Assembly (NCBI RefSeq): GCF_000469135.2
Contig: NZ_CP048117.1
Coordinates: forward strand, 1,029,501-1,093,500
DNA: 64,000 bases
Origin: Bacillus sp. SB49
GTDB taxonomy: Bacteria > Bacillota > Bacilli > Bacillales > Halobacillaceae
Direction of reading: 5' to 3'
This document shows, piece after piece, positions 62,362-64,000 of this stretch (positions within the stretch are counted from its first letter, which is position 1; each line of letters begins with the position of its first letter). A model generated the notes under the pieces. That model did no database searches, had not been told where the DNA came from, and saw only the letters and a program-made list of their open reading frames with translations. Both the position numbers and the translations under genes were made by a program.

Positions 62362-63294
62362 ATGGCAGAATTACATGATTTGCTGATGGATGCAAAGAAG
62401 AAGATGTACGAAAAAGATCAGCTGGAGCGTAAAAGGGAGAAACGAATCGCAGAAGCGGAGGTGCTTCGGCTTAAGGAGGAGGCACTCCGGCATAAGCTGC
62501 AAGAAGAGGAGGAAGACGTAGAGAAACTCGAGAAGATGAGTCTAATGAACCTCTTCGTTACCGTGAGTGGAAGAAAGCTGGAACGGATGGAGAAAGAAAA
62601 GCGTGAGGTTGTCGAAGCGCGTCTTAAGTGGAGGGAGGTAAAACAGGCGGTTAAAGAGATTCAGCGGGAGATTTCCGGGATGGAAGCCTCCATCTCTGCA
62701 CTTGGAAATCCTGAGAGGGAGTACGATCGCTGTTATAAGGAGAAAAAAGCAGATTTGATTAAAAAAGGCAGTCAAAAAGGAAGAAAAATAATAGAGCTTG
62801 GAAACCAGCGTTCTTTCCTTCAAGCAGAACTTGTGGAAATAGAGGAAGCTGTAACGGCAGGAAAGCAGGCGGGTTCGGCGTTGGACGAAGCAGCAGCTTC
62901 TCTGTCATCAGCAGAGAACTGGGGCGTACTCGATATGGTTGGCGGCGGTTTTTGGACAACCGCCGTCAAACATTCCGAACTGGATGATGCGGATCGCTAC
63001 ATCCGAACAGCGCAACAATATTTGCGGACATTCGCAAATGAGCTTGACGATCTACACGACCATTATGAAGTGAAATTGGAAGTTTCCAGCGGATGGGCTG
63101 CAGCTGACTACTTCTTTGACAGTCTGGTCGTTGATTGGTTCGTCCAAAATAAAATTCAAGCATCCCAGAAAGAAGTAGAAGATTTACGAAGCAGGACGTA
63201 TGCAGCTGTTGCAGAACTAGAATCTCTCCATCAGCAATACGAACAGCAGGAAGCGGAATTGAAACGCGAACAGGACCAGGTCATCGGTGCCTGA
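62362..63294 (+). CDS. Uncharacterised coiled-coil protein
   Basis: The 310-residue, highly charged helical protein has heptad-rich stretches at about residues 10-60, 75-115 and 265-305. A central conserved-looking region carries SSAENWGVLDMVGGGFWTTAVKHSELDDADRY near residue 175 and SSGWAAADYFFDSLVVDWFVQNKIQ near residue 235. There is no signal peptide or membrane helix. I do not recognise a named family. AAGGAAGGTGACTGGA sets the ATG at 62362. It is monocistronic, ending at a hairpin terminator. Confidence 0.8.
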   Translation: MAELHDLLMDAKKKMYEKDQLERKREKRIAEAEVLRLKEEALRHKLQEEEEDVEKLEKMSLMNLFVTVSGRKLERMEKEKREVVEARLKWREVKQAVKEIQREISGMEASISALGNPEREYDRCYKEKKADLIKKGSQKGRKIIELGNQRSFLQAELVEIEEAVTAGKQAGSALDEAAASLSSAENWGVLDMVGGGFWTTAVKHSELDDADRYIRTAQQYLRTFANELDDLHDHYEVKLEVSSGWAAADYFFDSLVVDWFVQNKIQASQKEVEDLRSRTYAAVAELESLHQQYEQQEAELKREQDQVIGA

Positions 63295-63349
63295 GGGCGG
63301 ATAGGTAAGTGGGTATTCGGTTGTAATTTATTTGAAAATTCGCAATGGG

Positions 63350-63374
63350 TTTGCGGAATACCGCAACTTTTTTT
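63350..63374 (+). terminator. Terminator of the coiled-coil gene
   Basis: TTGCGG / CCGCAA with a 4-base loop and seven T. Confidence 0.78.
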
Positions 63375-63410
63375 CGGTGATATAGGAGAAAGAATATATT
63401 ACAATAGAAT

Positions 63411-63613
63411 CAGATAAGCGCTGATGCTTATTTATCTCAACTATTTATGATTGGTTGTCATAAATAGGTCAGTAACTTGCTTACTGATGAGTGCAGCGTT
63501 GAAAAAGTGCTTTCCTCTCAAAAGAACTTTTTCAAACAATTTATTCCCTCACTCAAAAGTTAACCAGTCGTCTCTTTTTGCCAATGCTCACGTGAGCATT
63601 GGTCTTTTTTTTT
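63411..63613 (+). ncRNA. Candidate structured small RNA
   Basis: About 200 bases without an ORF form a row of hairpins: AGATAAGC/GCTTAT (63412-63437), CTATTTATGA/TCATAAATAG (63441-63467, perfect 10 bp), TCAGTAA/TTACTGA (63469-63487) and TTGAAAAAGT/ACTTTTTCAA (63499-63535). A plus-strand terminator CCAATGCTCA/TGAGCATTGG with a T run closes it. The upstream gene has its own terminator and the downstream gene is on the other strand, so this is a separate plus-strand unit. Unpaired TTTCCTCTC and TTCCCTCACTC could pair with ribosome sites. The promoter is unclear (TACAAT at 63400, or a sigma-H-like AGGAGAA...GAAT). Confidence 0.55.
63581..63613 (+). terminator. Strong terminator of the candidate small RNA
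   Basis: Perfect 10-bp stem CCAATGCTCA / TGAGCATTGG with a 2-base loop, then TC and nine or more T on the plus strand only. Confidence 0.88.
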
Positions 63614-63624
63614 ATCCAGATCAT

Positions 63625-64000
63625 TCATCCCCCCGGTTTTTGATAGGTGATCATATATTCCTCTTTTGTCAGATAGAAATCCCTTTCCGGACGATACGGT
63701 AACAGGCCGAGTCTCTCCAGCTTATAATAACTTATCCGTTTATATGGATCTCCATCGATGATGGGAAGCTCCTGTGTCTGCTTCATATAGAGATCCAGGG
63801 CATGCTGGACCATGTCAATGTCATGAGCCAGGTCCTTATCCTGCTCCTCGAACAGTTGATATGTTTCGCGTGACATGTAAAACGTGTCTTTAGGGACAGC
63901 GTGCAGGTAAGGGAAGAGCAGCTCATAATCCAGTGTTAAATCATCCTGGATGAGCACGCTGAGCGGCACTTCTTTCGGTTTCGCGTCGGCATAGGAATGG
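63625..64000 (-). CDS. DUF3939-like protein, 5' part cut by window edge
   Basis: The frame is open to the window edge, so the true start lies outside; an internal GTG at 63969 is not needed. The visible 124 residues contain PLSVLIQDDLTLDYELLFPYL, then DTFYMSRETYQLFEE and IDGDPYKRISYYKLERLGLL, ending in a YLTKEEYMITYQKP tail. This recalls the DUF3939 family of Bacillus from memory. It has no membrane helix in the visible part. Function is unknown. Confidence 0.6.
   Translation of the reverse strand, partial: HSYADAKPKEVPLSVLIQDDLTLDYELLFPYLHAVPKDTFYMSRETYQLFEEQDKDLAHDIDMVQHALDLYMKQTQELPIIDGDPYKRISYYKLERLGLLPYRPERDFYLTKEEYMITYQKPGG

Follow-up and report, generated by a model that had tools for sequence, protein, structure and literature searches.

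Near the end of a 64,000-nucleotide stretch of Bacillus sp. SB49 DNA (the window, that is, the whole stretch that was analysed, to which all positions refer unless a locus handle is given), an earlier note had proposed an unannotated structured RNA with C/U-rich unpaired motifs. The locus raises the question of whether such an RNA exists, what switches it on and through which part it might act. The reading favoured here, with a probability of about 0.7, is that an orphan ComP-ComA pair would drive a free-standing regulatory RNA, which probably pairs with mRNAs via a C/U-rich core.

Borders and fold of the RNA gene

The 237-nt stretch 63377-63613, originally delimited as a single unit, folds with a minimum free energy of -64.9 kcal/mol versus -44.3 +/- 4.4 in 200 dinucleotide shuffles (z = -4.68), none of the 200 being as good. 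The five hairpins described before, terminator included and two of them with perfect 10-bp stems, were confirmed at their positions, and both the RNA and its end at 63613 were retained. The start had to be moved. It is placed near 63412 because 63377-63411 holds the end of the RE3 half-site, a -35-like GTGATA and the -10 box TACAAT, and is promoter rather than transcript. The resulting features are listed below.

63339..63345, plus strand: TTCGCAA, an extra half-site-like element upstream of the palindrome; CGCA is conserved in nearly all 30 alignment rows
63351..63366, plus strand: ComA-type inverted repeat TTGCGG-AATA-CCGCAA (RE1/RE2), identical to the published ComA consensus (PMC4797271)
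63372..63377, plus strand: RE3 half-site TTTCGG, separated from the inverted repeat by 5 nt
63377..63382, plus strand: weak -35-like GTGATA, 17 nt before the -10 box; CGGTGA is conserved and the spacing constant, the assignment as -35 being tentative
63400..63405, plus strand: -10 box TACAAT, at a 26-nt offset from TCGGTGA
63412..63613, plus strand: small RNA of about 202 nt, start predicted from the promoter and end from the terminator
63412..63437, plus strand: hairpin 1, paired in 99.6% of cells across 29 relatives; most positions do not vary, hence no covariation evidence
63441..63467, plus strand: hairpin 2, the covarying helix, a perfect 10-bp stem with two-sided changes in 5 of 10 pairs; 100% of cells paired in 29 relatives
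63469..63487, plus strand: hairpin 3, 100% of cells paired in 29 relatives; nearly invariant
63489..63493, plus strand: GAGTG, able to pair with CACTC (63550-63554) of the core; invariant in 29 relatives, hence no covariation evidence
63499..63535, plus strand: hairpin 4, a perfect 10-bp stem; variable in sequence and loop
63544..63574, plus strand: core UUCCCUCACUCAAAAGUUAACCAGUCGUCUC, mostly single-stranded and ultraconserved, the presumed working part
63581..63613, plus strand: intrinsic terminator, a 22-nt palindrome (63581-63602) followed by a T-run to 63613; 97.9% of cells paired, two-sided changes in 2 of 10 pairs

Distribution and gene neighbourhood

A DNA search of 61 genomes matched the RNA in 36 of the 37 genomes of the SB49 family and in none of the 24 genomes of other families. 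The only family genome without a match, G021, is split into about 1000 contigs. Ten of the 36 matching genomes, from more distant genera, are matched over the 3' part only. Absence of conservation in relatives had been named beforehand as grounds for abandoning the RNA, and the 36 family matches settle this point in its favour. An exact 27-base pattern of the core, a search that detects exact cores only, was found in 32 stretches of the named genome collection, all from Halobacillus, Pontibacillus, Salimicrobium or Thalassobacillus. A covariance model was also built from the last 73 bases of the RNA and run on 397 genomes of the order. Strong matches (E <= 4.2e-13) were obtained in 26 of these, confined to two families, f1 and f36; the latter appears to be the Pontibacillus group, judging by operator strings that named Pontibacillus loci share exactly. 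Six further matches of the core model, with E between 0.009 and 0.096, were treated as chance. That a real and conserved RNA is encoded here is virtually certain. Conservation, covariation and a dedicated promoter, all of them read from genome sequences, support the original claim that the locus holds a structured, unannotated regulatory RNA bearing a single-stranded C/U-rich motif.

Wherever the flank suffices, the upstream neighbour is usually a gene with AMP-binding domains, which we take to be lcfB, and the downstream neighbour is a convergent DUF3939 gene; in five Pontibacillus loci, DUF3939 is the sole neighbour found. A 310-aa ORF lies between lcfB and the RNA in some loci. In the window this ORF occupies 62362-63294 and has no Pfam match; it stands beside the RNA in part of the loci only.

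Structure across relatives

The full-length alignment consists of 29 distinct rows, all Halobacillus-like. The rows from Salimicrobium, Pontibacillus, Thalassobacillus, g2 and locus L088 were omitted because their 5' parts differ. Overall, 99.4% of the cells in paired columns are paired, a value that drops to 33-47% when the structure is slid by 1 to 3 columns. Two-sided changes were counted in 28 cells as opposed to 7.5 +/- 2.0 in shuffles, none of 500 shuffles being as high. The number of pair types is not unusual in the same alignment (88 of 500 shuffles as high) and the RNAalifold covariation term is small (-1.84). Covariation in the stems had been put forward in the earlier note as a check on the RNA. 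Helix 2 covaries and bears most of the signal with 5 of its 10 pairs, the terminator has two-sided changes in 2 of 10, and hairpin 4 falls outside the RNAalifold consensus. Helices 1 and 3 and the GAGUG-CACUC pairing hardly vary, and covariation therefore neither supports nor refutes them. In hairpin 4 an A/G-rich strand facing a U/C-rich one is kept, as judged by eye; its loop changes freely and its length varies freely between relatives. In Halobacillus the CACUC part of the core may be tied up by pairing with GAGUG; no GAGTG was seen at the matching place in the Pontibacillus and Salimicrobium sequences inspected by eye.

The same alignments bear on the idea of a coding or dual-function RNA that makes a small peptide. 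The region had been described as free of ORFs, which holds for conserved ones; an 83-codon TTG frame (63451-63702) nevertheless crosses it in the window, and closed frames of at least 15 codons are present in 27 of 29 relatives. These frames differ in position and length from one relative to another, however, the length of hairpin 4 is free, one base is inserted in 4 of 37 cores and the sequence changes follow the helices. A coding RNA is scarcely credible and was rejected on the unconserved frames and the core insertion.

The invariant core

The core alignment holds 37 rows over Halobacillus, Pontibacillus, Salimicrobium, Thalassobacillus and others, out of 42 distinct cores. The near-duplicates L008, L081, L116 and L117 were left out, as was L088, because its terminator hairpin looks lost. 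The blocks CCCTCACTCAAAAGTTAA and CAGTCGTCTC are invariant throughout, except for 4 rows with one inserted T; T replaces the intervening C in 2 of 37 rows, and the two leading T vary in 4 of 37. The 31-nt unpaired core ahead of the terminator thus hardly changes across genera. Outside the Halobacillus-like genera the 5' part of the RNA differs and the core persists, and the core is for that reason considered the part under strongest selection. Two C/U-rich stretches had been singled out before as possible working motifs. The one preceding the terminator shows almost no variation; the hairpin 4 loop reads CCUCUC in only 13 of 29 aligned relatives and was rejected in this role. Halobacillus hunanensis retains an intact core at L088:5032-5124, but its terminator hairpin looks lost or replaced.

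A ComA-type promoter upstream of the RNA

The strongest feature of the locus, a ComA-type promoter, had been missed in the earlier note, where the operator was taken for a terminator. The ComA consensus consists of TTGCGG, a 4-nt spacer and the inverted hexamer (PMC4797271). Three elements of a ComA-regulated promoter, namely an inverted repeat upstream of a core promoter, an RE3 half-site and a ComA with a matching recognition helix in the genome, were found. In the B. subtilis promoters tested, the RE4 half-site mattered, and it is degenerate in several promoters (PMC4797271); at the present locus a clear RE4 was not recognisable 5 nt after RE3, a stretch that is variable in the alignment. 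Upstream of the palindrome, TTCGCAA (63339-63345) resembles, in our reading, a further ComA half-site.

Wherever the script located both TCGGTGA and the -10 box, the offset between them is 26 nt. The script gave no promoter for five Pontibacillus loci (L061, L069, L072, L080 and L089) and no usable -10 for two g2 loci (L116 and L117); these were inspected by eye, apart from L069, whose upstream DNA is too short. Within the set of 61 genomes, the exact tripartite pattern occurs in 32, once in each and always in the family (32 of 37), and its reversed control nowhere. The perfect palindrome is present in 32 of the 37 family genomes: 31 have it at exactly one place, at the RNA, and one has it at two. 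Four of the five family genomes lacking it keep a degenerate copy at the RNA, the fifth being G021. Outside the family, the bare palindrome was found in 3 of 24 genomes, one copy in each.

The palindrome could instead be the intrinsic terminator of the upstream gene, with arms and T-run, the RNA then having an ordinary constitutive promoter. The window itself lends this some colour, since TTGCGG...CCGCAAC followed by TTTTTTT stands 56 bases past the stop of the 310-aa ORF. Terminator arms, however, need complementarity and not a fixed sequence, and those at this locus do have a fixed one, in agreement with the ComA consensus. In 7 of 9 copies from f36 (presumably Pontibacillus-type) and 2 of 4 from Salimicrobium, TGCGT stands opposite CCGCAA, which breaks one base pair and keeps the half-site core. 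The site also stays when the upstream gene varies between relatives (lcfB or the 310-aa ORF), and its distances to RE3 and to the -10 box are constant. A terminator was rejected as the main reading on the constant spacing, the broken pair and the varying upstream gene, and is regarded as highly improbable. The description of the RNA as an isolated unit is accordingly half right: the downstream gene is convergent, but what had been taken for the upstream gene's terminator (63351-63366) is, in our reading, a conserved operator of the ComA type.

The ComA orthologue and the comPA locus

The regulator expected at a ComA-type operator is encoded in SB49. A query representing B. subtilis ComA retrieved an orthologue with 41% identity (E 1.2e-44); 7 further SB49 response regulators match at lower scores, the next best with 31% identity to this query. 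The best solved-structure matches of the DNA-binding part are to B. subtilis ComA (62 bits, next 35), the recognition helix reads SQRSVEYTLTG(I/V)F in all 26 orthologues examined, and a small tree sets the ComA-like proteins apart from three other SB49 response regulators. A different NarL-family regulator using the site would be conceivable in view of the 7 lower-scoring response regulators; the recognition helix differs, however, in the three that were extracted, and the presence of site, RNA and ComA orthologue coincides, which leaves this alternative quite improbable.

In SB49, comA adjoins a gene for a 774-aa ComP-type histidine kinase. This orphan comP-comA pair (L107:5053-8027, equivalent to G000:C1:2455552-2458526) lies between an iron-sulfur gene taken as sdhB and a small GerE-family gene (gerE). 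The locus consists of comP and comA only, no comQ or comX being seen in the stretch examined. The ComX model PF05952 had no match in SB49 and matched 3 of the 37 family genomes; its silence in SB49 carries little weight because it also found nothing in 14 control genomes. A complete and separate comQ-comX-comP-comA locus was observed in the Halobacillus-family genome G020 (L109:4492-8989), and the ComX model also matches G018 and G025. In an f36 genome, locus L164 has a similar neighbourhood by eye (comP, comA, a MarR-type gene and a racE-like gene). Autoregulation of comA was considered and dropped, since the comPA locus has 2 places with 3 mismatches to the site versus 4.25 expected by chance. 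Neither Halobacillus nor Pontibacillus is mentioned by name in the main text of a census of comQXPA loci from 2014 (PMC4008528), and a 2025 Halobacillus genome paper mentions comP and comA (PMC12167742).

Co-occurrence of RNA, site and regulator

Among the 397 genomes of the order, 98 have a ComA match at E <= 1e-35. The 26 best of these (at least 297 bits, next 240) are exactly the 26 RNA-bearing genomes, both sets having been cut at a wide score gap. The degenerate tripartite site is found in 31 of the 397 genomes, comprising the 26 RNA-bearing ones (one site each), 3 of genus g58 and 2 of genus g92. All 31 have a ComA match at E <= 1e-35, with a hypergeometric probability of 2e-21 that is inflated by shared ancestry; the co-occurrence is confounded by phylogeny, all 26 genomes falling within two families. 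Genera g58 and g92 represent lineages distinct from each other and from the RNA-bearing families. A strong RNA match is absent from 72 of the 98 ComA-matching genomes, and the RNA is therefore not a general ComA target.

One locus from each of three g58 genomes was inspected, and two further g58 places were left out. In L259 and L261, from this other family, the site lies just upstream of a comQ-like polyprenyl synthetase gene, and the promoters share TTTCGGTGA and the 26-nt offset to the -10 box with the RNA promoter. These comQ-like promoters provide independent support for the ComA-type reading of the latter. No such -10 box was found at the other sites in the L259 and L261 loci or at the site in L260. 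In g92, L262 and L263 have a ComA-type promoter of the same layout and offset from about position 1500. No ORF of at least 40 codons was found within about 200 bases of the g92 sites, which possibly serve another ComA-driven RNA or a long leader. The conserved RNA with its structure, the operator with its spacing, the orthologue and their co-occurrence are established at the level of sequence; on this footing the link of the promoter to ComA appears strong, and control of the RNA by ComA is very probable.

Mode of action

ComA binding, the direction of control, the start site and the pairing are inferred, and would combine as follows. The orphan ComP-ComA system encoded between sdhB and gerE would sense a signal, leading to phosphorylation of ComA. 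Phosphorylated ComA would bind the inverted repeat at 63351-63366 together with the half-site at 63372-63377 and activate RNA polymerase at a promoter devoid of a good -35 box. An RNA of about 200 nt would then be transcribed up to its own terminator. Hairpins 1-4 would form a 5' scaffold that varies between genera, and the 31-nt C/U-rich core would be the working part, most probably pairing with target mRNAs at their G-rich translation starts.

Gram-positive RNAs that act by pairing typically carry C/U-rich UCCC motifs, and base pairing of the core with mRNAs is given somewhat better than even odds. Blocking of AGGAGG-like ribosome sites, as had been suggested, is possible; no excess of the one 8-base complement before ATG accompanies it. 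The pattern GTGAGGGAN{2,9}ATG occurred at 70 places in 6 genomes versus 68 for the reversed control. Two of the 70 places are the antisense strand of the RNA itself, and 30 were inspected as loci. A perfect 14-nt complement to the core was found at the start of an nsrR-like gene in G025 (L189:1501-1535, minus strand). The nsrR start was located in 19 of 20 further family loci (the script missed L227), and in these 19 relatives the complement measures 9 nt in 3 and 5-7 nt in 15, and is missing in 1. When duplex energies were summed over the 20 starts, 25 of 200 shuffled cores paired as well, and nsrR was rejected as a target for this reason. No conserved target was found in these limited searches (one 8-mer before ATG in 6 genomes; nsrR starts).

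The empty target searches would also fit an RNA that is driven by ComA but binds a protein, as RsmY/RsmZ do with CsrA, the invariant core being the protein site. About 30 near-invariant bases across genera exceed the typical need of a pairing seed, and the combination of a NarL-type regulator with a single perfect site, located at a single RNA, is reminiscent of GacA with rsmY/rsmZ. CsrA itself is an unlikely partner, GGA being absent from the window RNA and occurring 0 to 2 times in each of 29 relatives; with no repeated GGA, a CsrA-sequestering RNA is not supported. The UCCC motifs likewise speak for pairing, and protein binding by the core is considered the less likely, though serious, alternative. 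Base pairing through the core is retained as the preferred mode of action.

Comparison with known systems

The search of Rfam release 15 suggested in the earlier note returned no family above the gathering cut-off in the window; 10 matches lay below it, the best at E 0.35. The RoxS/RsaE covariance model (RF01820) detected its B. subtilis control and had no match in the SB49 genome. The remark that the sequence does not match RoxS is thereby borne out and identity with RoxS/RsaE rejected. CsfG was no more than an initial guess at the identity of the RNA. Open-access literature, in titles and abstract starts among the matches listed, gave no report of this RNA or of a ComA-driven small RNA. To our knowledge, the known outputs of ComA, a well-studied quorum-sensing regulator, are protein genes. 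The RNA family is new; the circuit is of a known kind and its wiring is new.

The RNA resembles RoxS/RsaE in its C/U-rich single-stranded motif, which might pair with ribosome-binding sites, but promoter and layout differ. As in the B. subtilis ComA promoters (srfA, rapA and others), TTGCGG-N4-CCGCAA is followed by a TTGCGG-like half-site before -35 (PMC4797271); here, by contrast, 31 of 37 family genomes have no more than a single perfect palindrome each. The likeness to B. subtilis ComQXPA extends to a ComA with a near-identical recognition helix and a ComP-like kinase gene beside comA. The output, however, is a non-coding RNA, comPA stands without comQ/comX in the stretch examined and RE4 is unrecognisable.

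As the usually sole perfect ComA-type site of the genome lies at the RNA, the ComP-ComA signal may go chiefly into one RNA. It is conceivable, at somewhat less than even odds, that an orphan ComP-ComA freed from ComQ/ComX has turned into a one-output switch in Halobacillus, Pontibacillus and related genera, the RNA conveying the whole of its signal either to a single RNA-binding protein or to many mRNAs. A small RNA at the sole perfect ComA site in most genomes of a halophile group would show a rewiring of ComA output and would mean that RNA serves as a signal output also in Bacillales other than Staphylococcus. With one promoter, one regulator and one RNA, the system is directly testable. AgrA-RNAIII of Staphylococcus likewise couples two-component signalling to one structured RNA with C-rich unpaired stretches as its main output; the regulator is unrelated, the present RNA has no conserved coding frame and the sequences were compared via Rfam only. 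GacA-RsmY/RsmZ shares a NarL-family regulator and a palindrome found almost only at small-RNA promoters; it belongs to a different phylum, and without GGA repeats the SB49 RNA is by sequence not a CsrA sponge. If true, the one-output switch, with the quorum-sensing regulator ComA as its building block, would be the Gram-positive equivalent of GacA-RsmY/Z or AgrA-RNAIII.
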